Shown one piece after another: positions 276-59,513 of a stretch of DNA of 64,000 nt (its first letter is position 1; each line of letters starts with the position of its first letter). Source of the DNA: Panopea generosa (taxonomy: Eukaryota; Mollusca; Bivalvia; Adapedonta; Hiatellidae). The DNA lies in the NCBI GenBank assembly GCA_029582155.1, contig CM055895.1, forward strand, positions 53,597,250-53,661,249, written 5' to 3'. The notes beneath the pieces are model-generated. The model saw nothing but the letters and a program-made list of their open reading frames with translations. It searched no databases and was not told where the DNA came from. A program made the translations under genes and the position numbers.

Positions 276-1712
276 GGGTCTGCACACATACTGGGGTGGT
301 TCATTTCTAAGGGTATGCACACATACTGGGGCGGTTCATTTCTAAGGATCTGCACACATACTGGGGTGGTTCATTCTAAGGGTCTGCACACATACTGGGG
401 CGATTCATTTTTAAGGATCTGCACACATACTGGGGTGGTTCATTTCTAAGGGTCTGCACACATACTAGGGCAATTCATTTTTAAGGATCTGCACACATAT
501 TGGGGTGGTTCATTTCTAAGGGTCTGCACACATACTGGGGCAATTCATTTTTAAGGATCCGCACACATACTGGGGTGGTTCATTTCTAAGGGTCTGCACA
601 CATACTGGGACAGTTCATTTCTAAGATTCTGCACACTTACTGGGGCAGTTCATTTCTAAGGGTCTGCACACATACTGAGACCTTTCATTTCTAAGGGTCT
701 GCACACATACTGGGGCGGTTCATTTCTAAGGATCTGCACACATACTGGGGTGGTTCATTTCTAAGGATCTGCACGTGAAACATACTGGGATGGTTCATTT
801 CTAAGAGTCTGCACACTTACTGGGGCAGTTCATTGCTAAGGGTCTGCACACATACTGAGACCTTTCATTTGTAAGGGTCTGCACACATACTGGGGCGGTT
901 CATTTCTAAGGATTTGCACACATACTGGGGTGGTTCATTTCTAAGGGTCTGCACACATACTGAGACCTTTCATTTCTAAGGATCTGCACACATACTGGGA
1001 CAGTTCATTTCAAAGAGTCTGCACACTTACTGGGGCAGTTCATTTCTAAGAGTTTGCACACATACTGAGTCCTTTCATTTCTAAGGGTCTGCACACATAC
1101 TGGGGCGGTTCATTTCTAAGGATTTGCACACATACTGTGGTGGTTCATTTCTAAGGGTCTGCACACATACTGGGGCAATTCATTTTTAAGGATCTGCACA
1201 CATACTGGGGCGGTGGTTCATTTCTAAGGGTCTGCACACATACTTGGGATGTTCATTTCTAAAGGTCTGCACACATACTGGGGCCTTTCATTTCTAAGGG
1301 TCTGCACACATACTGGGGCGGCTCATTTCTAAGAGTCTGCACACATACTGGGGCGGTTCATTTCTAAGGGTTTGCACACATACTGGGGCCGTTCATTTCT
1401 AAGGGTGTGCACACATACTGGGGTGATTCATTTTAAGGGTCTGCACACATTCGGGGGCCTTTCATTTCTAAGGGTCTGCACACATACTGGAGCTGTTCAT
1501 TTCTAAGGGTCTGCACACATACTGGGGCGGTTCATTTCTAAGGGTCTGCACACATACTGAGGCCGTTCATTTCTAAAGGTCTGCACACTTACTGGGGCAG
1601 TTCATTTCTAAGAGTCTGCACACATACTGGGGTGGTTCATTTCTAAGGGTCTGCACACATACTGGGGCGGTTCATTTCTAAGGGTCTGCACACATACTGG
1701 GGCAGTTCATTT
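276..1712. repeat. 35-bp minisatellite, about 41 copies
   Basis: The unit contains GGTCTGCACACATACTGGGG followed by a variable pair of bases and TTCATTTCTAA, giving 35 bp. Copies differ mainly at the GGGGCGG/GGGGTGG/GAGACCT position, and these subtypes recur in blocks, which suggests that groups of units were copied together. It is intronic and non-coding. Confidence 0.95.
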
Positions 1713-3184: not shown

Positions 3185-3475
3185 TACACCTCTATTTGCT
3201 GTTTAGCTTCTTAGTTATATACAAGTAATTGTATTTAAATGACGCCTTTCTGTGTACAGATATTTAATTACACCTTTTGTGGCAGTACATATTTTTGAAT
3301 TGCATTTTATATGTTTATATATACATACATGTATTCACATGTTTATATACATCCTACTGTAGGTATGATGTACATATATTTAAACTTAATGATACTCTTA
3401 TTTGTAGCATAGGTACACATTATTTAATAAAATTACACCTTTGTATGTCGCACATATATCTAAATTACACATGTA

Positions 3476-3650
3476 TAGATTCGAGTCTTGCTTGCACCAA
3501 ACTCTTTATGTAAGAAAGTTGGCCAGTTATTTGCGGAAGGACAGTGGTTCTACTCATATTATTCTGAGGTCTTCCTCCACCAATAAAACTGGATATGCCA
3601 TATATAACCTAAAATGTGTTACAAAATGGTGTTAAACCCTGTTTAAAAAA
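3476..3650 (+). mobile_element. tRNA-derived SINE, family B, 5'-truncated
   Basis: Begins near the box-B-like GATTCGAGTCTTGC and continues with the family body (AAGGACAGTGGTTCTACTCA, CTGAGGTCTTCCTCCACCA) and the conserved 3' end GGTGTTAAACCCTGTTTAAA. The same order of blocks recurs at 5086, 6955, 13362 and 30655, which defines the family. The tRNA-like head is missing here. Confidence 0.75.
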
Positions 3651-3849: not shown

Positions 3850-5062
3850 GATAAAGTCTAGTAATGGGATATTAGTCATTTGTATGCATAGCAATGGAAT
3901 ATAAAAGATACATTTATCATAGCAATATGATATGAGAGCTACTTACATGTATAGCAATGGGATATAAGAGTTACTTGTATGTATAGCAATGGGATATAAG
4001 AGTTACTTACATGCATAGCAATGGGATATAAGAGCTACTTATATGCATAGTAATGGGATATAAGAGTTAACTTAAAATATGCATAGCAATGGGATATATA
4101 GAGTTGCTTACATGCATAGCAATGGGATATAAGAGTTACTTATATGCATAGCAATGGGATATAAGAGTTACTTATATGCATAGCAATGGGATAAAAGAGT
4201 TTTTTATGCATAACAAGGGGATATAAATGTTACTTATATGCATAGCAATGGGATATAATAGTTACTTATATGCATAGCAATGGGATATTAGAGTTACTTA
4301 TATGCATATCAATGGGATATAGGAATTATATGCATAGCAATGGGAAATATGCATTATTTATATGCTGGCAATGGATTATAAGAGTTACTTACATGCATAG
4401 CAATGGGATATTATAGTTACTAATATGCATAGCAATGGGATATAATAGTTACTAACATGCATAGCAATGGGATATTATAGTTACTTATATGCATAGCAAT
4501 GGGATATAATAGTTACTTATATGCATATCAATGGGATATTAGAGTTACTTATATGCATATCAATGGGATATAAGAATTATATGCATAGCAATGGGAAATA
4601 TGCATTATTTATATGCATAGCAATGGGATATAAGAGTTACTTAAATGCATAGCAATGGGATATTATAGTTACTTATATGCATAGCAATGGGATATAATAG
4701 TTACTAACATGCATAGCAATGGGATATTATAGTTACTTATATGCATAGCAATGGGATATAATAGTTACTTATATGCATAGCTTTGGGATATAATAGCTAC
4801 GTTCATGCATAGCAAAGGGATATAAGAGTTACTTATATGCATATTAATGGGATATAATAGTTACTTACATGCATAGCAACTGGACATAATAGTTACTCCT
4901 ATGCATATTAATGGGATGTAATAGTTACTTATATGCTAAGCAATGGGTTATGAGTTATTTATATGCATAGCAATGGTATATAAGAGATACTGGTATGCAT
5001 AGCAATGGGATAAAAGAGGAACTTATATCATGACTATGTGATATATAAGTTACTTGTATCAT
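3850..5062. repeat. 32-bp minisatellite with higher-order structure
   Basis: The unit is built from GCATAGCAATGGGATATAAG plus AGTTACTTATAT (32 bp), about 38 copies. Blocks around 4281-4500 and 4532-4750 share the same succession of variant units (shortened GGAATTATAT unit, then GGGAAATATGCATTATTTAT), with a period near 251 bp. This shows duplication of a multi-unit block. Confidence 0.93.
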
Positions 5063-5085
5063 AGCTTTGGAGTATATATTAAGAG

Positions 5086-7247: not shown

Positions 7248-7476
7248 GTTCTGGTTGATGGACTGCCAGGCGACCCAGGAGTCGGCCAGTATGGCCACTG
7301 ACATATATCACGAGGCCGTCAACGTACCATATATGGCACGCTTTGTCGTCTTTGCTAAGCGTACATCTATGGAGGAAGGACAATTGCGCATGTTCTGTAT
7401 GACTGATGATCGTACGGACAAGACACTCGAGAAACAACAAAATTTTACTGAGGTTGCCAGAAGCAGAGATGTGGAG
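7248..7476 (+). CDS. ANK: Ankyrin exon 2 of window: core of UPA domain
   Basis: The first base completes the Arg codon left by the previous exon, then 76 codons follow. The translation starts [20 protein letters not shown] and includes [29 protein letters not shown] and [13 protein letters not shown]. Each has a close vertebrate ankyrin counterpart ([52 protein letters not shown]). The UPA domain is part of the ankyrin surface that organises the spectrin-binding region. Acceptor ATTACAG; donor GAG|GTAAAG. It ends in phase 0 exactly at the junction where the next exon supplies VLEGRP. Confidence 0.97.
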
Positions 7477-7963: not shown

Positions 7964-8215
7964 GTCCTAGAAGGAAGGCCCCAATTTGTGGAGATGGCAG
8001 GCAACCTCATTCCTGTCACAAAATCTGGTGACCAGCTCTTTATCGATTTCAAAGCTTTTCGAGAGAATCGCCTACCGTGCACGGTACGCATTCGTGACCT
8101 AGATCAAGAGCAAGCTGCCAGGGTGGCGTTCATGAAAGAACCAAAAGTGGCTCGCGGAGAGCTTCCACAAATACCAATCTGTAATCTCAACATCACGCTT
8201 CCAGGATGGTCGAAA
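7964..8215 (+). CDS. ANK: Ankyrin exon 3 of window: end of UPA domain
   Basis: Phase 0 to phase 0, 84 codons, acceptor TCACTTACAG and donor AAA|GTAAGT. The translation runs from VLEGRPQFVEMAGN through LIPVTKSGDQLFIDFKAF, RENRLPCTVRIRDL and VAFMKEPK to ICNLNITLPGWSK. Vertebrate ankyrins read GNLVPLTKSGQ, FKENRLPLFVKVRD, SFMKEPK and AICNLNITLPIYTK in the same order, so the domain call and the exon limits are firm. The phase 0 end means it can join in frame to any acceptor in phase 0; in this window those are at 9458, 12904 and 17902. The first gives the standard DD-containing form. Confidence 0.97.
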
Positions 8216-9457: not shown

Positions 9458-9536
9458 TCGTCATCTATGGAACTTGATGCTGATGCCTCCCTGGAGGTGA
9501 GGAAGAGACATTCATTACTCAGAGAACATGGTATAG
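9458..9536 (+). CDS. ANK: Ankyrin exon 4 of window: UPA-DD linker
   Basis: Phase 0 in, one base out (26 codons plus one base). Acceptor ACATTATTTTCAG, donor ATAG|GTATGT. It encodes SSSMELDADASLEVRKRHSL followed by LREHGI, a short linker between UPA and the death domain. In vertebrates a far longer, alternatively spliced region, including the giant exon, lies at this point; here only this short exon separates the two domains. A GTGAGG at 9497 could serve as an internal donor but would change the phase, so the 9536 end is preferred. Confidence 0.9.
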
Positions 9537-9559
9537 GTATGTACACATCTTTTATGAAG

Positions 9560-10236
9560 TGTTAGAAGAGTCTTATCAGCTATGAATTATTTTCTCTTGC
9601 AGTGTTTGAAAACATGCTATCAGTTATAAAGTATTTCCCCTTGCAGTGTTAGAAGATTCTATCAGTTATAAATTATTTCCCCTTGCAGTATTAGAAAATG
9701 CTATCAGTTATAAAGTATTTCCTCTTGCAGTGTTAAGAAAAGTCTATCAGTTATGCATTATTTTCCCTTGCAGTGTTAGAAGATTCTATCAGTTATGCAT
9801 TATTCCCCCTTGCAGTGTTAGAAGAGTCGATCAGTTATAAAGTGTTTCCCCTTGCAGTGTTAGAAGAGTCTATCAGTTATGCATTATTCCCCCTTGCAAT
9901 GTTAGAAGAGTCTATCAGTTATAAAGTATTTCCCCTTGCAGTGTTAGAAGAGTCTATCAATTATAAATTATTTCCCCTTGCAGTGTTAGAAGATTCTATC
10001 AGTTATAAATTATTTCCCCTTGCAGTGTTAGAAGATTCTATCAGTTATGCATTATTCCCCCTTGCAGTGTTAGAAGAGTCTATCAGTTATAAAGTATTTC
10101 CCCTTGCAGTGTTAGAAGAGTCTATCAATTATAAATTATTTCCCCTTGCAGTGTTAGAAGATTCTATCAGTTATAAAATTATTTCCCCTTGCAGTGTTAG
10201 AAAAGTCTATCAGTTATAAATTATTTCCCCTTGCAG
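9560..10236. repeat. 42-bp array made of copies of a 3' splice site
   Basis: About 16 tandem units with the core TGTTAGAAGATTCTATCAG, then TTATAAATTATTTCCCCTTGCAG. The array ends exactly at the acceptor of the death-domain exon, whose first bases are TGTTGGAAGATTCTATCAG. Each unit therefore carries a pyrimidine tract, a CAG and a copy of the first ~19 coding bases of that exon. Most units are 42 bp and so frame-preserving; the unit at 10152-10194 is 43 bp. The periodic open frame across 9773-10219 follows from this and is not a separate gene. Confidence 0.95.
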
Positions 10237-10440
10237 TGTTGGAAGATTCTATCAGCCGGGCCCAGATAAAGCTTACAGATGTGGCTGACACACTACAGGG
10301 TGACTGGGTAATCCTCGCCCAGCAACTAGACATCACCGGTGGTGAGATTAACCAGATCAAGTCAGACTACAACACAGTAAATGATCAAGCTCTGGCAATG
10401 TTACAACTCTGGGTCTCGAAAAAGGGAGATGAAGCAACAG
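10237..10440 (+). CDS. ANK: Ankyrin exon 5 of window: death domain, first part
   Basis: Encodes the N-terminal two thirds of the ankyrin death domain: (V)LEDSISRAQIKLTDVADTL, then GDWVILAQQLDITGGEINQI, KSDYNTVNDQALAMLQLWV and SKKGDEAT. This lines up with the vertebrate pattern [26 protein letters not shown]...LLKYWLERDGKHAT, including the Trp in helix 2 and the Gln-Ile of helix 3. Phase 1 in and out, 204 nt, donor ACAG|GTACAC. The acceptor CCTTGCAG is the last of about 17 near-identical acceptors in tandem. Use of the one just upstream (start 10195) would insert 14 residues, VLEKSISYKLFPLA, in frame. Confidence 0.96.
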
Positions 10441-10978
10441 GTACACATCACAATAAATTAACTGATATTTTTAACAGGTCATCATCTCTTATGATTTAAA
10501 CTTATTTATTTTACTTCAGTTGCGAAACAAGTTATTACAACTTAGACAAATTATGCTCCAAGTATTTTTGGAGAACCATTAATGCTCATAGTTATACAGA
10601 TGAAGTGTCTTGCTCAAGGACACCCCAAGTGACCGTCTGATCCTGGGTATTTTGCTCTGCCACTGGACGACGCTCCGATTTCATGAAATTCTCTCTTATA
10701 CCCTATTTATCTTACATTGACTCACTTTAGTTTATGCTTGAATTGACATTCAAACCATCATAAACTACCACTGTAATTATATAACCTTATAAAATAATTA
10801 GATATTTCTCTTTATAAAATTATTAGTTATTTCTCCCCCTCTCATCGAGACATAATTTCGTGTTGTCTGTCTGTCACAGGTCATTTAATTCCCTTGCATT
10901 TTATGCCATAATATACTGTCACAATTTTTTGATACAAAAGGATTTGTCTTTTGATTAAAATGTACCTTACATTGTCAG

Positions 10979-11107
10979 GCAATGCTCTAGAAAACGGATT
11001 AAGGCAGGTGGGTAGGGAGGATGTAGTGAAGAAGACCATGTATAATGTAGAAGAAGTAGTAGATGAGCTTGAGGCTGCTGCAGCAAGAGCAACAATGGAC
11101 CAATCAG
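10979..11107 (+). CDS. ANK: Ankyrin exon 6 of window: death domain, end
   Basis: Phase 1 to phase 1, 129 nt. Translation: (G)NALENGLRQVGREDVVKK, then TMYNVEEVVDELEAAAARA and TMDQSG. The first part completes the death domain (compare vertebrate TNLVECLTKINRMDIVHLME). The Glu/Ala-rich end starts the regulatory region. Acceptor ACATTGTCAG; donor CAATCAG|GTAAGC. The donor is repeated at 11140 and 11172 within a 32-bp tandem duplication; using either would change the reading frame, because 32 is not divisible by three. Confidence 0.95.
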
Positions 11108-11176
11108 GTAAGCCCTTACAAAAGTTAACAACCAATCAGGTAAACCCTTACAAAAGTTGGCAACCATTCAGGTAAA
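11101..11176. repeat. 32-bp duplication of a 5' splice site
   Basis: CAATCAGGTAAGCCCTTACA and AAAGTT plus CAAC recur at 32-bp spacing: CAATCAGGTAAG at 11101, CAATCAGGTAAA at 11133, CATTCAGGTAAA at 11165. Each copy includes the exon end and its donor, so three candidate 5' splice sites follow the second death-domain exon. Only the first keeps the frame. Confidence 0.92.
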
Positions 11177-11642
11177 CTTTTCGAGAATGATGGTTTAATA
11201 GAGTTAAGTCTTACAGAAACTTTTTTTAACAATCCTTGCGTAAAAAATAACTAAATTTGACATAACAAAAAAAATCAAAGCAGTTACAAGGTACTTTTGT
11301 TGAACATAGTTCTATTATTTTAATAGCAGTTTAAACCGTATGACAGAAATGCTGCTGATATTTCTTTGGGGGGAAGTAAATGACATTTGTTGCAAAATAT
11401 GTACAAATAGAATTGCCAATAAATTATTGGAAATAATTGATCTATATTATGTTTGTTTGTCTGTTTGTCACCTCTCTGACTTCAGATCATATGCATTACT
11501 TATTCATGAAAATCTTGCAATAATTCCATACAATGTTACATATGTGTTAACCTACAGGGTTGTCAGTCTAGTCATAGTAACGTGTGTACTTCTCTATGAT
11601 AACATTTTTGAGATAAATATAATTTTATGACGTGTGTTTCAG

Positions 11643-16398: not shown

Positions 16399-17395
16399 TA
16401 TGTCTTTGGTCATTTAATCTTCCCAAGGCCTGTTATAGCCTTTGATTGCTCATTTAATATACCCAAGGCCTGTTATAGCCTTTGATTGCTCATTTAATAT
16501 ACCCAAGGCCTGTAATAGCCTTTGATTGCTCATTTAATATACCCAAGGCTTGTTGTAGCCTTTGTTTGCTCATTTAATCTACCCAAGACCTGTTATAGCC
16601 TTTGATTGCTCATTTAATATACCCAAGGCCTGTTATAGCCTTTGGTTGCATATCTAATATACCCAAGGCCTGTTATAGCCTTTGTTTGCTCATTCAATAT
16701 ACCGAAGGCCTGTTATAGCTTTTGATTGCTCATTAATTGTTAATCTACCCAAGGCCTGTTATAGCCTTTGATTGCTCATTTAATATACCCAAGGCCTGTT
16801 ATAGCTTTTGATTGCTCATTTAATATACCTAAGGCCTGTTATAGCCTATGATTGCTCATTTAATCTACCGAAGGCCTGTTTTAGCCTTTTATTGCTCATT
16901 TAATCTACCAAGGCCTGTTATAGCCTTTTATTGCTCATTTAATATACCCAAGGCCTGTTATAGCCTTTTATTGCTCATTTAATATACTCAAGGCCCATTA
17001 TAGCCTTTGATTGCTCATTTAATCTACCCAAGGCCTGTTATAGCCTTTGTTTGCTCATTCAATCTACCCAAGACCTGTTATAGCCTTTGATTGCTCATTT
17101 AATCTACCCAAGGCCTGTTATAGCCTTCGTTTGCTCATTCAATCTACCCAAGGCCTGTTATAGCTTTGATTGCTCATTTAATCTACCAAAGGCCTGTTAT
17201 AGTCTTTGTTTGCTCATTCAATCTACCCAAGGCCTGTTATAGCCTTTGATTGCTCATTCAATATATCCAAGGCCTGTTATAGCCTTTGATTGCTCATTCA
17301 ATATATCCAAGGCCTGTTATTGTCTTTGATTGCACATCTCATATACTCAAGGCCTGTTATAGCCTTTAATTGCACATCTCATATACCCAAGGCTT
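16399..17395. repeat. 40-bp minisatellite, about 24 copies
   Basis: The unit reads CATTTAATATACCCAAGGCC then TGTTATAGCCTTTGATTGCT, exactly 40 bp. Variants ATAT/ATCT and GATTGCT/GTTTGCT alternate in a pattern suggestive of multi-unit copying. A SINE of family A abuts its 3' end. Confidence 0.95.
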
Positions 17396-49500: not shown

Positions 49501-50713
49501 GGTCCTTTGCCATAATTGTCAAAAATTGCACTTATATACTCTAGCATCAGCATTTTTCATTGGATCTCCACCAAACATTCATAGTACATAATATAACATA
49601 CAATCTCAGACAATTTCTACATGCATAATTTGATTATAATTTGATTTGGCACAGATGCTTGTACCCAGATGAGTGATTTAAATCCATTGTGACTCTCTTC
49701 TTTCATGGTTGATGGCATTGGTCACATTTAAGTGTCAAGTCATTTGAAGTCACACATGCCATTTCATTGGAGAATCATGGGAATCTAGACATTAAGCCCT
49801 AATGGAATCTCTTTTTTACCATCCACATTTTTGATGCTACAGTTATGTTATAAATAACCAAATGAAGTTGATAATGAGTTCAAAATGGTCGAGTCTTAGT
49901 CAATATAAAAAATTTAAAACTGATTTCAGTAAGGTAGATGAAAGAGAGAGTTCGCTAATTAATGGCCTAATTTCATCATTCATTTGCATGCTTACAACAC
50001 ATCAAACCCTGCTCCTCATATCATACAGAAATCTGTAGCATAATAGAAATCATATAAATTCTATTTTATTCACATTGAATATACATGCCTCATATGCAAG
50101 CAAGGTTTTCACCATGAAGAATAAGCAATTTTAATTTCAAAGTCGGTGCACCTTCAGCACTGCTGAACTGCAAACACCGTTTTTTATAAAGGTAAGTAAT
50201 CGTAAAAGTAGAATTCGAAAATCTTGGTTTTGATCATATTATGGCATGCATATCACCTATATTCACCCCTCAGTAAACAGCAACCCTTTCTGCTCATTGA
50301 TCAACTTGTCATACTGTTCTGTCTGGTGATGTGAATTTAAATGTACCATACTTTTAGTGGTATAGCACAGGTAATGGATTTCTTGAATTTTGCCATTTCA
50401 TCTGCAGACGGTCATAGTGGCACACTTTTCCAGACAGTACAAGTTGGTCTAATCATTACCAAGCTCTCCTAATATACAGCTATAGATGCTAGAGCACACA
50501 GTGGTCATTCATTTTACAGTTTTTGCTGTATAGAAGCTTCACCTTTGCAATACATGGAAATAACAAATTTTTATTGCATTAAATTTTAAACTCAACTTGG
50601 CTTGATATACTAATTGCTAACACTGCTTTAGCTGGTTGAAGGAAAATAATCGTGATAATATTGGTGTTGAAAAACATGGGCACCATCATTTACACAGGCC
50701 ACTATTGTTTCAG

Positions 50714-53700
50714 GCCAGTTTGAGACTTCGCTTGACAATTTGGAACGCTTGATACAAACTGACACAGTTAAAGTCGATGAAGCAATCATAGTAGAAACTG
50801 CGACTGTTGTTGAAAGTGGTGCACTTGTTGCACCATTGCCCCCTGTGGAATCTGTTTCCATTGAAGTTGGCTTAGGAGATGTTTATGATGTCAAAACTGT
50901 TGATGGTGAATTAGTCAGTGAAAAACATGTAGAACCATCAGACTTTGAACATTATGATAAACCAGATAAAAGTGCAGATGAGGATAAATCTGGTAGGAAA
51001 TCAGGAAGTGGGAGTAGTTCAAGTTCAGATAGTGAGAGTAAATCTGATGAAGAAACGTATGAAAAAGATAGTAATGACACAAAAAAGCAATTAATTGAAC
51101 AACTTACAAAAGAAAGAGATAGCTCTAGTAAAAGTTCTGATGATGAGGCGAAAGTTTGTGAAATACCAAAAATAGAAATTAATGAAAAAGAAAGTAGTAG
51201 TGGTTCTGAAGATGAGACAACAACAGAAATGAAGGTTGATATAGGAATTGAGGATTCCACAAAAGTTACAATAGATTCAGATAGTAGTAGTAGTAGTAGT
51301 TCAGAAGATGAGGAAAAGGTAAGTGACATTCCAAAACAGAAGTTTGAAATAGATATTCATGACTCCAAAAATGAACAGATGGAAGCAGTTGAAAAAGTTT
51401 CAGAAGGAAAGGATAATAGCAGAAGTAGTTCTGAAGATGAAGCAAAGGTCAGTAAAGTTCGAAAAAAAAAGTTTCAAATAGAAATTGACTCCCAAAATGA
51501 AAAAACGGATATAATTAAGACAGTTTCAGAAGGAAAGGATAGTAGCAGTAGTAGTTCTGAAGATGAAGGTAGACTCCATGAAATACCAGAGATGAAGGTT
51601 GAAGTTAAAGATGATACAAAAATTGAAAATGACTCAAAAGTTGAGAAAGATCTATTAGTGATGAATGTTTTTAAAGCAGAAAGAAAATCGAGTAGTGACA
51701 GTGGTAGCAGTAGTAGTTCAGATGATGAATATTTTGAGACTCTGGCTGAACCTGAAATTAAGAGTGAAACAGATGATACAGTGTCCCGTTATGTTGATAC
51801 TCATTCAGAAACTAGAATTCTGTTGCCTATTGCAAAACCTGAAAATGACATTAAAACAGTTGTAAGTCCAGTAGCAGAACCAGAATTAGATGTAAAAATG
51901 GAATATGCCATTAGAATGGAGTCATCTGATATGTCCACTGACTTGACACCCCTTGACGAGTTTAAGGTTTTAGAATTAAAAGATTCGTCACCTGAGATAT
52001 CTCCAAGAGGTCAATATGTGAGAATGTTTCCAGTACCTGGAATGTCTGACTTAGTAGCTGTTCCAGACAACACTGAAACAGCATCTGAGATTCATGTTGA
52101 AACAGATTATGTGTTATCAAAACCAAATGAACAGTTTGTTAGTGGGTTAAATTTGAAAGACACTGACAGAAAAGACAAAGGTGATAACACAGATAAACCA
52201 AAGAAGGAAATTAAACGCAAGCATGTTACATTTGCAGAAACTGTGAAAGATAATGAGAGACTGACAAGTGATAGTGAAAGTAGTGAGTCGGATAAATGTG
52301 ACTCGATAAGTTCTGAAAGTAGTGATGATGAAACAGAAAATAAATATTGGTTTATCAGAGATGAAGCAAATGTTCTCGACAAAGACAAAGTATCCTCTTC
52401 ATCCAGAAGCGACAGTGATGGTGAAGAAAAGTCTATGAAAGCAAAACAGAACAAAGATTTTGATGTTGATTACGATGCCATTGAAAGAGATGTTATTACC
52501 ACTGATCTTGATGCAGACATAGGGGAGCCTGAAGGAAAGATGGAATCGCCAACATTTATGTCGGAACCAGTCACAATTCCCGATCCACAAACACCCAAAT
52601 TAAGCTACCAAGAAAATCTTTTTAATCTTGACCCAAATGTTGAGTTTATAAGAAAGGTTCCAATTGAGGAGGCCAAAATTAAACTTGATATAGAAAACAA
52701 AGAAAAGGAAACTGATCTTGATGACGATTTTGAATATGAAATAGAAAAGAAAGATGGGTCTTCAACATCATCAAGTGACAGTGAAGATGGTGTCACTTCA
52801 TATGATTTTGGAGTAGCAGAAGGAAGAGAAAAGGAGTCATCATCTGAATCTGACGAAAATTTAAAACAAAATGTTGGGAAGAAAGATAACTCTTCTACAT
52901 CTTCCAGTGACAGTGAAGATGGGGTAACGTCATATGATTTAAGACTTGCCGAAAAATTAAATGATGAAAAATCATCTGTAACTGAGGATGAGAAAGACTT
53001 AGATGATAAGGTTCAGCCAAAACAAGTATATGTTGACACAATAATGGTTGAAACAGCGGTGCAACCGAAGGATTCTTTATCATCCAGTGACTCTGATAAT
53101 GAAAAAGAATATGACATCAAGATTCAGCCAATGGAAACAGACGTTGATCCAATATCGGCTGCTGTACCAAAGGAAAATCAGATTGATATAAGAAAACACT
53201 CATCCTCTTCCTCCAGTGAATCAGATAATGAAAAAGAATCTGATATCAAGGTTCAGCCAAAAGAAACAGATGTTGATGCAATAACGGTGGAAATGATAGC
53301 TGTGCAGCCAAAGGATTCCTCATCATCCAGTGAATCTGATAATGAAAAAGACACTGATAACAAAGTTGAACCAAAAGAAACAGATGTTGATGCAATAATG
53401 GTCGAAACAGTAGTCGTGCAACGGAAGAATTCCTCGTCATCCAGTGAATCTGATAATGAAAAAGAGTCTGATAATATGATTCAGCCAAAAATAAAAGACG
53501 TTGATGCAATTATGGTGGAAACAGTAGTCGCGCAACGGAAGGATTCTTCATCATCCAGTGAATCTGATAATGAAAAAGACACTGATAACAAAGTTGAACC
53601 AAAAGAAACAGATGTTGATGCAATAATGGTCGAAACAGTAGTCGCGCAACGGAAGGATTCCTCATCATCCAGTGAATCTGATAATGAAAAAGACACTGAT

Positions 53701-56700
53701 AACAAAGTTGAACCAAAAGAAACAGATGTTGATGCAATAATGGTCGAAACAGAAGTCGCGCAACGGAAGGATTCCTCATCATCCAGTGAATCTGATAATG
53801 AAAAAGACACTGATAACAAAGTTCAACCAAAAGAAACAGATGTTGATGCAATGTCTGCTGTACCAAAGGATAATCAGATTAAAAAAAGAAAACATTCATC
53901 GTCTTCATCATCATCCTCCAGTGAATCTGATAATGAAAAAGACACTACTGATAAGGTTCGGCAAAAACAGACAGATATTGATGCAATCACGATTGAAACA
54001 GAGGTCACTGAAACAAAAGATTCTTCATCATCCAGTGAATCTGATAATGAAAAAGACACTGATAACAAAGTTAAACCAAAAGAAACAGATGTTGATGCAA
54101 TGTCTGCTGTACCAAAGGATAATCAGATTAAAAAAAGAAAACACTCATCCTCTTCATCATCATCCTCCAGTGAATCTGATAATGAAAAAGACACTACTGA
54201 TAAGGTTCGGCAAAAAGAGACAGATATTGATGCAATCACGATTGAAACAGAGATCACTGAACCAAAAGATTCTTCATCATCCAGTGAATCTGATAATGAA
54301 AAAAACACTGATAACAAAGTTAAACCAAAAGAAACAGATATTGATGCAATAATGGTCCAAAAAGTAGTCGCACAACGGAAGGATTCCTCATCATCCAGTG
54401 AATCTGATAATGAAAAAGACTCTGATAACACAGTTCAACCAAAAGAAGCAGATGTTGATGCAATATCTGCTGTACCAAAGGATAATCATATCGAAAAAAG
54501 AAAATGCTCATCCTCTTCATCATCATCCTCCAATGAATCTGAAAATGAAAACGACACTACTGATAAGGTTCAGCCAAAAGAGACAGATAATGATGATAAA
54601 GTCTCTGATGATAAGGCAAATTTAAAAGATATTGATATTGATGTAAAAGGTATTGAAAAAGAAAAGGATGTTGTACTTAAAGAGACAGATGTAGATGCAG
54701 TTATGATTGAAACGATATCAGCTGTACCTAAGGAAAGTAAAATTGAAAAAAGAAAATACTCATACTCGTCGTCATCCTCTATCGAATCTGATATTGAACA
54801 AGATTCTACTGATAAGGTTCAGCCAAAAGAGACAGATATTGATGCAATCATGATTGAAACAGAAGTCATGAATCCAAAAAGTTACTCATCATCCAGTGAG
54901 TCTGACGATGAAAAATACTCTGATGATAAGGCAAAGTTAAAAGGTAATGATATTGATGTAAAAGATATTGAAAAAGAAAAGGATGTTGTACTGAAAGAGA
55001 CAGATGTAGATGCAGTTATGATTGAAACAATATCAGCTTTACCTAAGGATAGTGAAATTGAAAAAAGGAAACCCACATCCTCAAGTGAATCTGATAATGA
55101 ACAAGATTCTGCTGATAAGGTTCAGCCAAAAGAGACAGATATTGATGCAATCACAATTGAAACAGAAGTGATGAAACCAAGAGATTCCTCATCCAGTGAG
55201 TCTGATGAGAAAAAAAATGAAAAGGCAAAATTAAAAGATACTGACATTGATGTAAAACATATTGAAAAAGAAAAGGATGTTGTACTGAAAGAGACAGATG
55301 TAGATGTAATTATGATTGAAACAATATCAGCTGTACCTGAGGATAGTGAAATTGAAAAAAGGAAATTCCTATCCTCTTCATCGTCATCCTCAAGTGAATC
55401 TGATAATGAACAAGATTCTGCTGATAAGGTTAGGCCAAAAGAGACAAATATTGATGCAATCATGATTGAAACAGAAGCGATGAAACCAAGAGATTCCTCA
55501 TCATCCAGTGAGTCTGACGAGGAAAAAGATGAAAAGGCAAAATTAAAAGATACTGACATTGATGTAAAACATATTGAAAAAGAAAAGGATGGTGTACTGA
55601 AAGAGACAGACGTGGATGCAATTATGATTGAAACCATATCAGCTGTACCCAAGGATAGAGAAATTGAACAAAGGAAACACTCATCCTCTTCTTTATCATC
55701 ATCCTCAAGTGAAACTGATAATGAACACGATTCTGCTGATAAGGTTTGGCCAAAAGAGACGGGTATTGATGCAATCACTATTGAAACAGGCATTGTGAAA
55801 CCAAGAGATTCCTCATCATCAAGTGAATCTGATAATGAAAAAGATGAAAAGGCAAAATTAAAAGATACTGACATTGATGTAAAACATATTGAAAAAGAAA
55901 AGGATGTTGTACTGAAAGAGACAGATGTAGATGCAATTATGATTGAAACCATATCGGCTGTACCCAAGGATAGTGAAATTGAACAAAGAAAATGCTCATC
56001 CTCTTCTTCATCATCAACCAGTGAATCTGATAATGAACAAGATTCTGCTGATAAGGTTCGTCTGATAGAGACAGATATTGATGAAATCACGATTGAAACA
56101 GAAGTCATGAAACCAAAAGATTCCTCATCTTCCAGTGAGTCTGATGATGAAAAATACTCTGATGATAAGGCAAAGTTAAAAGGTACTGATATTGATGTAA
56201 AACATATTGAAAAAGAAAAGGATGTTGTACTGAAAGAGATAGATGTTGATGTAGTTATGATTGACACGATATCTGCTGTTCCAAAAGATAGTAAAATTGA
56301 AAAAAGAAAACGCTCATTCTCTTCTTCTTCTTCTTCTTCATCATCATCAAGTGAATCTGGACAAGAAATATACATGGTTCAGCCAAAAGAGACAGATGTT
56401 GATGCCATAATGATTGAAACTGTAGTTATGCAACCAAAGGAGTCTTCATCATCCAGTGATTCGGATAAAGACGAAGACTCGAAAGATAAGGTTATACCAA
56501 AAGAAACAGAAGTTGATGCAATAATGGTTGAAAATAAAAAGAAAGTGGCACTAAAGGAGACAGGTGTAGATGCAGTTCTTATTGAAACAATATCTACTCT
56601 ACCAAAGGATGCTCAAATTGAAAAAAGAAAACACTCCTCATCTTCATCATCATCCAGTGAATCAGAAAATGAAATGAACCTGGGAGATAACATTCCACCA

Positions 56701-59161
56701 AAACACTCATCATCATCATCCTTCAGTGAATTTAATAATGAAAAAGAATCCAAAGATATAGTAGAATTTAAAGGTACTGATCAGGATATTAAAGTTTTTG
56801 AAAATACGACAGTTCAGTCTACTGTGCTTTCACCATTAAATAAATCAAATACTGATGAAAAGTTACCTGTGGCTACACTCGGGCCAAAGGAAACAGATAT
56901 TGATGCTATTGTGATTGAAACTGTAGTATCAACTAAAGAATTATCACCAGAAAACATTATTTCTGAAGAAAATAAACCATTTAATGCAGTAGAAAGATCA
57001 GAACAATTTGAAATAGTTGAAAGAAGTGTAGAAATAGAACATGGAGGGAGGAAAGAATCAGCATCTTCCAGTTCTAGTGATGATGATCAAATCAATGGTA
57101 AAGAAGGTTTAGATGAAAAGAATGAATGGAAAGAAAGAAAAGTTTCAAATTCTTCCTCCTCTTCATCTTCTGACAATGAAAGTGAAATCAAAACAGAGTC
57201 TCAACATCAGCCAACAGAAACTTACATAATGTCAGTTCAGCATAAACAAAAACAACAAGACACAGTCAAAGATGTTGAAGTTAACACTGGTGTTGGAAAT
57301 GACAGTGAAATGACTGGTTTGACAAGTAAGATTATGACAGATACTCAAATTGAATATAAAACTGTTGATGTCGTTGAGAATATTCCAGAGATTGTTGCAT
57401 ATGATACTACACATACAAATGACGGTGATGAAATGGATATTATTGTTAAAGTTACAGGCCGTACCAGGAAAACATCTTCATCATCCTCATCTAGTGATTC
57501 AGAAAATGAAAAGGACTCGACAGATATGAAAACAGCAATAAGAGAAACTGATGTTGATGCAATTATGGCTAAAGAAAAGAAAGATTCTTCATCGTCACAT
57601 TCAAATGAATCAGACAATGAAAGCAAATTTAATGATAAACACACAGCACATGTAGTAGAGAGATCAGAACAATTTGAGATTCTTGAACAGAAGGAATGTC
57701 TTGAAATAAAAGATGGGAAGAGAAAATACTCTTCATCATCATCCTCAAATTCAAATGATGGAAATCAAAAAATGGAAGAAAGCAAAGATCAGCAAAGAAG
57801 AGATTCCACCTCATCATCATCTTCAGAAAGTGAAAATGAGGAAAAGAAAGAAACATCATACCTGCATCATAAAACTGGCTTGGATACAGTTGAACATGAA
57901 AAGAAACAGCGAGAATTGAAAGCAATTAACATAGGAGAAATGTCTGGTCTTCCTGTTAAAGACAGAGTAGATACAGAAGTTGTAACTGAAACTATTGATG
58001 TTGTTGAGAGCATACCAGAGATGACTGAAACTGATATGAAATTTACAGAAGAAAACACTGAAATGGAAATACTACTTACACGGACCAAGGACGAGAATGT
58101 AAATATTGAAGCAGACAATGAAAAAGCAGACATTCCAGATAATGAAGTATTATGGTCTAGAAAATCATCAACATCAAGTTCTAGCTCATCAGATGATGAT
58201 AAAGAATATGCCATGAATTTGGATCTTGAGAAAGAAACAAATAGGTTTGAATCTTTTGTTGTAAAAGAAGAACCAAAAATATTAGTGGAAAAAAATGTTA
58301 AAACAGATTTTGATACTCCAGCTTCTGTCCAACATACTGTCAGAAAAGAATCATCTTCGTCAATTTCATCTTTTGAAAGTGACACAGAAGAAAGAGATGA
58401 AAACAAAAAGTCAAACTCATCATCATCATCATCATCATCATCATCAGATGAAGGTGATGATAAAGACAGTAAACAAGTTGCACTTGAGACAGACATCGAT
58501 TTTGTCCCAGCTGACACAATTCCTACCACTGATACTGATCTTGAAAAAAGAAAGAAAGATCCAATAGAAACTGACATTGATTCATATCCAGAATATCCTG
58601 CAGGTCCAATGGTTACAGATATAGATACAGTTGAACCAGAATTTGTCACAGAACAGTTTCACAGAACGTACCCTGTTGAAGCCCCAAATGTTGACCAAGG
58701 TGAAGACCACCCGCCTGAAGATGAAGACTACTGCCAGACAACATTGACTGTGATAAGGAGAGTGAAGGTGAAGCAGACCTACGGCAGCAACAAAACTGAA
58801 AGACAGTCCACTACTACTATAGAACAAAATGTTAAACCTGATGAACCAAAAATTGTAGATGTTACACATTTGGAAACTTTACCTTCAAAGAGGCCACGGT
58901 CATCATCTACAAGTTCTAGTGATGATGATCACCCCTCAAAGAAGAGGGAAATGGATGGCAAATATCATTATGGACGAGAAGTAACCCCGCCAAGTAGAGA
59001 ATATGTAGTACTGGAAAGCGTACCACAAATTGACAAAACTAAAACAACAGCGGAAAGGTATATAAAAGAACAACAGTATGTTCCTCAAAAAAGGTCTTCA
59101 ACATCCTCATCTGACTCCGATATGGAAGCTAAGATGTTCAATGTAGAAGAACCAACTGAAG
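50714..59161 (+). CDS. ANK: Giant ankyrin exon (about 2,815 codons)
   Basis: A single open exon of 8,448 nt, phase 1 to phase 1, acceptor ACTATTGTTTCAG, donor GAAG|GTATAA. By analogy with giant ankyrins of vertebrate and fly axons it should produce a long disordered tail linking membrane-bound ankyrin to the axonal cytoskeleton; that role is inferred. Regions: opening GQFETSLDNLERLIQTDTVK; a Ser/acidic part to about 53010 with many SSSSxEDE clusters that suit casein kinase 2; a tandem array (53010-56700) of 38-residue units built on KETDVDAIMVET and DSSSSSESDNEK; two ~115-170-residue related blocks (56989, 57655); and a less repetitive end with YCQTTLTVIRRVKVKQTYGS. Unspliced, the frame stops at 59197-59199. 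The exon alone would add roughly 310 kDa. Confidence 0.96.
50990..53009 (+). other. Giant exon, proximal Ser/acidic region
   Basis: Serine runs followed by Glu/Asp (SSSSSSSEDEEK, SSSSSSDDEYFE) separate basic-hydrophobic phrases such as VSDIPKQKFEIDI and VSKVRKKKFQIEI, which recur loosely with about 55-60 residue spacing. Serines in runs here are mostly AGT/AGC. SDIP at 51322-51333 fits the SxIP class of EB-binding motif. Confidence 0.85.
53010..56700 (+). repeat. Coding tandem array in giant exon
   Basis: Units aligned on KETD start at 53260, 53374, 53488, 53602, 53716 and 53830, an exact 114-bp (38-residue) register. From 53830 two composite units of 249 bp follow (53830, 54079, 54328). From 54679 six copies of a larger unit start at 54679, 54994, 55288, 55600, 55915 and 56233, 294-318 bp each. 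All changes preserve the frame. Neighbouring 114-bp units are nearly identical in DNA, so expansion was recent. Confidence 0.95.
56989..58110 (+). repeat. Older coding duplication in giant exon
   Basis: Two related blocks: VERSEQFEIVER at 56989, a Ser-rich part, MTGLTSK and TVDVVENIPEI (near 57361); and VERSEQFEILEQ at 57655, a Ser-rich part, MSGLPVKDRVDTE and TIDVVESIPEM (near 57991). The order of elements is the same but the DNA is well diverged, so this duplication predates the 114-bp array. Confidence 0.85.
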
Positions 59162-59513
59162 GTATAATTCAAGTTTGCGGCATTGGTTTGCATCTTTGAT
59201 AGTACTCAGTGCTTTTTTCTACTTTTTAAATTTAAAGTGCATCCACTCCTTCAGTGTAGAATTCTAATTGATTCCAAAACTTAAAAATAAGAAATGAAAT
59301 ATTGCAGAAAATGAATTTAAATGTTTTGTAAACTCTGGAGGAGATATCACTTTAGATTGTTGCCTTTAGGCTAGGTGCTTATTCTGTTGACCTGGAAATC
59401 AGGTAGGTTTCTGCATAAACTGCCTCAGAGTTTTTAATTTGTAATGAAATACAAAATACACAATATATTCTTAATTGGCTTTATCATTCACATCTTCAAT
59501 ATATTTGAAAATT

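Follow-up and report, generated by a model that had tools for sequence, protein, structure and literature searches.

A 42-bp tandem array across the splice acceptor of the death-domain exon in a predicted ankyrin gene of the bivalve Panopea generosa

How would a cell find the right splice acceptor in an intron that consists almost entirely of copies of that acceptor? The question is raised by a stretch of 64,000 nucleotides from the bivalve Panopea generosa (assembly GCA_029582155.1, contig CM055895.1, positions 53,597,250 to 53,661,249, forward strand), here referred to as the window, in which a 42-bp minisatellite spans the acceptor of the death-domain exon of a predicted ankyrin gene. Our preferred explanation, to which we assign a probability of about 0.75, is that the array is a "mirage", the name used in amphioxus for minisatellite duplications of intron-exon boundaries (PMC3087553, PMC3902484). 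Copies of the boundary would have drifted in a repeat-rich region, functionless, with splicing mainly to the true acceptor before 10237 and decay of the decoy products. The boundary and its array comprise the following features.

9458..9536, forward strand: coding exon preceding the array, linker that joins the UPA and death domains, donor GTATGT at 9537 (from frame and splice consensus)
9558..10255, forward strand: acceptor-spanning tandem array of 42 bp with 16 acceptor segments (from repeat call and unit cutting)
9858..9899, forward strand: unit with lost acceptor, ending GCAA (unit cutting)
9900..10009, forward strand: 110-bp stretch repeated exactly at 10068-10177 (alignment)
10152..10194, forward strand: 43-bp unit with one extra A, throwing upstream acceptors out of frame (unit cutting)
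10195..10236, forward strand: unit with in-frame acceptor, adding VLEKSISYKLFPLA (frame reading)
10237..10440, forward strand: death-domain exon, acceptor before 10237 and donor at 10441 (Pfam Death 6.5e-12, phase with neighbouring exons)

An initial annotation, made from the letters of the window, had described a death-domain acceptor multiplied about 16 times with a period of 42 bp, and both figures were borne out; its interpretation was supported in part. Tandem Repeats Finder (TRF) reported an array at 9558-10255 with a period of 42, 16.5 copies, 88% matches and a score of 1050, and cutting at CTTGCA[G/A] delimited 16 acceptor segments from 9603 to 10237, namely the true site, 14 AG decoys and one GCAA. 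The unit was said to combine the pyrimidine tract and CAG with ~19 bases from the start of the coding sequence of the exon; we measured 19 exon-like bases, TGTTGGAAGATTCTATCAG, plus 23 intron bases (pyrimidine tract and CAG) that end in CTTGCAG. The intron (9537-10236, 700 bases) has 21 donor-side bases and is from there on almost entirely array. The extent first given, 9560-10440, had to be corrected, as the array runs from ~9558 to 19 bases inside the exon that starts at 10237 and stops short of 10440. Of the 15 units between the segments, 12 measure exactly 42 bp; the units at 9731 and 10152 have 43 bp each and the one at 9603 has 44 bp. The AG is retained in 14/15 segments upstream of the true acceptor, the GCAA before 9900 being the sole loss.

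A 31-base pattern from the unit, searched with at most 3 mismatches in the 1.47 Gb genome, gave 13 forward matches and 0 reverse, all 13 within the array, and the reversed pattern, used as a control, gave 0 matches in the same 1.47 Gb. Confinement of the matches together with the empty control argues that the array is not a chance pattern, and on the ground of the confinement an origin from a dispersed satellite or transposon was rejected. An open frame of 160 codons lies inside the array (9737-10219), since the 42-base unit is free of stops. It matches DUF7278 (E 1.4e-8, 35.3 bits, cut-off 27), a match that we read as a putative artefact of repetition, and a coding array was rejected.

The units appear to be still turning over. 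The stretches at 9900-10009 and 10068-10177 are identical over 110 bases, which shows a recent joint duplication of several units, and the leftmost units appear more divergent by inspection of the alignment, without a tree. Across the 12 units that measure exactly 42 bp, the exon-like part has 0.63 changes per column and the intron part 0.70; nothing in the sequence suggests selection that keeps or removes the decoys. Arrays of this kind are error-prone in assembly, and an amphioxus mirage was apparently misassembled in the draft genome (PMC3087553). It is nevertheless very improbable that the array is an assembly artefact, with a different true copy number or with units collapsed or inflated, given the distinct variants among its units and the boundary arrays of other periods in the same assembly. 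Its copy number is uncertain, its existence much less so.

The host gene is identified as ankyrin from its predicted domains. ANK repeats, ZU5, UPA and Death occur in ankyrin order, and the best solved relative is Ankyrin-2 (1.3e-70). Two further exons in the window carry UPA matches.

7248..7476, forward strand: UPA-domain exon 1 (Pfam UPA_2 3.9e-22)
7964..8215, forward strand: UPA-domain exon 2 (Pfam UPA_2 3e-26)

By tblastn with ankyrin queries, the ankyrin-repeat exons were located 74-88 kb upstream of the window, with ZU5 exons in between. The name "exon 5" in the initial annotation reflects that reader's own count and does not stand, with the ankyrin-repeat exons ~74-88 kb upstream. The death-domain exon has a single strong match in the genome. 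Two other death-domain matches are only remotely similar, one at 35% identity (E 0.03) and one at 29% (E 0.08), and no in-genome paralogue useful for the ancestral state was found. Protein matches make a mollusc host probable. One muscle-myosin exon has 3i5f as its best match (167.5 bits), followed by 1dfk, 1dfl, 1b7t, 1kk7 and 1qvi (158.7) and by 2ec6 and 2os8 (153.0), and the others among the 60 of 69 matches listed score at most 134.7; the leading entries are squid and scallop proteins. A second myosin exon matched non-muscle and smooth-muscle entries, which say nothing about the taxon, and a search with mollusc-type haemocyanin gave an uninformative absence of matches.

The decoys were also predicted to be near-perfect acceptors, and their scores agree. 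With a matrix built from 22 other acceptors of the ankyrin gene, a small sample whose left-out scores span -2.4 to 12.2, the true acceptor at 10237 scores 7.1 and the AG decoys 5.3 to 10.9, 7/14 being at or above the true site; a secondary AG before 10256 scores 0.4. Acceptor sequence thus offers no ground for preferring 10237. Recursive (ratchet) splicing was rejected, as the acceptors read CAG/TGTTAG (the slash marks the splice site) and lack AG/GT. The GT one base past the acceptors has a donor score of 3.7 (5.1 at the GCAA unit), the reference median over 20 donors of the ankyrin gene being near 8.

The 14 AG decoys differ in their effect on the reading frame. Use of 10195 alone keeps the frame and adds 14 residues (VLEKSISYKLFPLA), whereas the other 13 lead to stops; the annotation had anticipated both the open in-frame insert and the shift beyond it, which follows from the extra A in the 10152 unit. 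An open, in-frame product, with its insert in the linker and ahead of the region of good alignment to the ankyrin death domain, is what a regulated isoform from a functional alternative acceptor at 10195 would look like. However, a single in-frame site among 14 does not exceed the chance expectation, unit lengths of 42, 43 and 44 are not restricted to multiples of three, and the perfect repetition of 110 bp suggests rapid change in the array. We regard such an isoform as improbable.

Amphioxus offers the closest parallel to this arrangement, with mirages in Adh3 and the globins BflGb6 and BflGb9 (PMC3087553, PMC3902484) and similar boundary arrays in lancelet PGBD5 and TnC (PMC3902484). As reported there, mirages occur at acceptors as well as at donors, the AG or GT is kept in many units, and turnover takes place within clusters. 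The criteria for a mirage further include homogenisation inside the cluster with divergent units at its borders, and germline or somatic length polymorphism. The ankyrin array likewise has a tandem unit that spans the boundary and a splice dinucleotide in many, not all, units. It differs in its mollusc host and in having 16 acceptor segments, compared with 6 and 3 units in the two haplotypes of BflGb6. In the literature searched under that name, "mirage" in the boundary-minisatellite sense was found for lancelets only. The array thus is of a known kind, and its host and frequency are the new part.

In humans, the CBS 31-bp variable number tandem repeat (VNTR), c.1444_1467+7(16_21), is polymorphic with 16 to 21 copies, and its unit also spans a boundary, by its name with 24 coding and 7 intronic bases (PMC2630376); it lies on the donor side, in another gene and another phylum. 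The human ABCA7 intron 18 VNTR, an array of 25-bp units, likewise differs in lying on the donor side, where it opens with the GT of the donor itself (PMC5954066). Single duplications across an intron-exon junction pose the same choice between equivalent sites, although without an array. In CBS 844_845ins68 there is a strong preference for the distal member of the duplicated pair (PMC2630376), and in potato RdRp the boundary duplication yielded a new intron (PMC4974935), whereas nothing indicates a new intron at the ankyrin array.

Under the mirage explanation, tandem copying of the intron-exon boundary in an array-rich region would have created the minisatellite, and duplication of unit blocks would keep it changing. 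The exon end at 9536 would be joined mainly to the exon-proximal acceptor 10237, because exon definition, through the donor at 10441 and the exon body, would favour the nearest acceptor and because each decoy carries just 19 exon bases. Decoys may take a few percent of splicing, and products of 13/14 would have premature stops and be lost to nonsense-mediated decay. The array could be tolerated, then, because exon definition picks the nearest acceptor and mis-spliced products mostly carry stops. The drift half of this mechanism rests on the sequence, which shows the anatomy of the array, its frame effects and the recurrence at other edges. Choice of the last AG, loss of the other products and neutrality are inferred, the splicing half from the cited parallels.

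The same stops and decoy strengths would also fit a leak that matters for dosage, in which sizeable decoy use leads to degradation, and array length, varying among individuals, sets ankyrin output. ABCA7 gives this idea some precedent, as repeat length there is associated with reduced expression and increased skipping of exon 19 (PMC5954066). In the same system, however, retention of one unit is 2 +/- 1% of transcripts and independent of repeat length (PMC5954066), and amphioxus mirages are reported to leave splicing undisturbed (PMC3087553, PMC3902484). A strong leak should moreover be costly where the death-domain exon has one strong genome match. We therefore consider a dosage leak unlikely, if less so than the isoform at 10195.

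The death-domain boundary is not the sole edge with local copies. In a survey of 24 placed ankyrin exons with 45 edges, copies across the edge were found at 4/45, and TRF arrays touch 3/24 exons, in all three at an edge. Edges of putative spectrin and myosin exons gave 1/60 and 1/24. The other duplicated edges, with negative coordinates upstream of the window, are listed here together with the exon that adjoins the donor duplication.

-85480 to -84880 (locus L014): acceptor array of an ankyrin-repeat exon at -84914, 75 bp x 8, 95%
~-6680 to -6404 (locus L022, ~3320-3596): decayed acceptor array of a ZU5 exon at -6404, four AG copies
10979..11107, forward strand: next exon, end of the death domain, true donor at 11108
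11099..11177, forward strand: donor-spanning duplication, 32 bp x 2.5, decoy donors 11140 and 11172 (TRF)
L036, 1336-1384 and 1480-1531: two-copy acceptor duplication of a spectrin exon, upstream copy without AG
L066 (G000:C2:55409000-55414000), 666-891, reverse strand: acceptor array of a non-muscle-type myosin exon, 44 bp x 5.2, four AG decoys

The decoy donors 11140 and 11172 each lead to a stop. The ZU5 array has no TRF call, and 0/200 shuffles were equally good; the spectrin duplication was missed by a stricter test. Pooled, 6/129 edges have copies (5/128 leaving out the starting array, 2/84 outside ankyrin), divided into 5/66 acceptors and 1/63 donors. All six edges have their copies in the adjoining intron, and in three sibling arrays the copied exon portion codes for conserved protein, which points to copying from exon into intron.

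Two observations on the siblings were made in passing. Most of the L014 units also hold GCCT/GTAAGAA, a weak donor-like sequence (score 0.2), and resemble 28-base microexons. In the ZU5 array, pyrimidine tracts and CAG are better preserved in the decoys than the exon-like parts, a comparison made post hoc.

No preference of arrays for exon edges was seen, and random positions carry copies more often. In the ankyrin region 107/599 random positions had local copies, compared with 4/45 edges, a difference that is not significant (Fisher p 0.15). By local alignment 3/45 ankyrin edges and 52/300 random positions passed (p 0.19, in a test that used 4 ankyrin edges); donor 11108 cannot pass, because its copy falls in the excluded 40 bases. 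In the spectrin loci, 22/300 random positions had local copies. Arrays of period >=10 cover 18.7% of 204 kb and 20.5% of the window.

Boundary minisatellites may well be genome-wide in this mollusc lineage, at a few percent of edges and possibly in thousands, graded in age between arrays with 95% identity and decayed ones; we put this at slightly better than even. In that case they would constitute a replicated natural experiment on acceptor choice by the spliceosome where the candidates are nearly alike, and would keep providing material for new exon ends and introns. The present array, with its siblings in three genes (ankyrin, spectrin and myosin), would extend mirages from lancelets to a mollusc. 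Minigenes for the study of duplicated splice sites in vitro have carried two or three copies. The ankyrin intron presents 15 AG acceptors of almost the same sequence, with sibling arrays of other periods in the genome, so that rules of proximity, scanning and exon definition could be read from ordinary RNA-seq.

Outside the placed exons, the ankyrin region also contains large minisatellites at 263-1713, 3883-5065 and 16406-17393, with units of 35, 32 and 40 bp and 25-41 copies. Downstream of the death domain, an open frame of 2842 codons (50671-59199), rich in Ser, Glu, Asp and Lys, is perhaps a giant ankyrin tail exon; it contains coding tandem repeats of 114, 126 and 312-315 bp.
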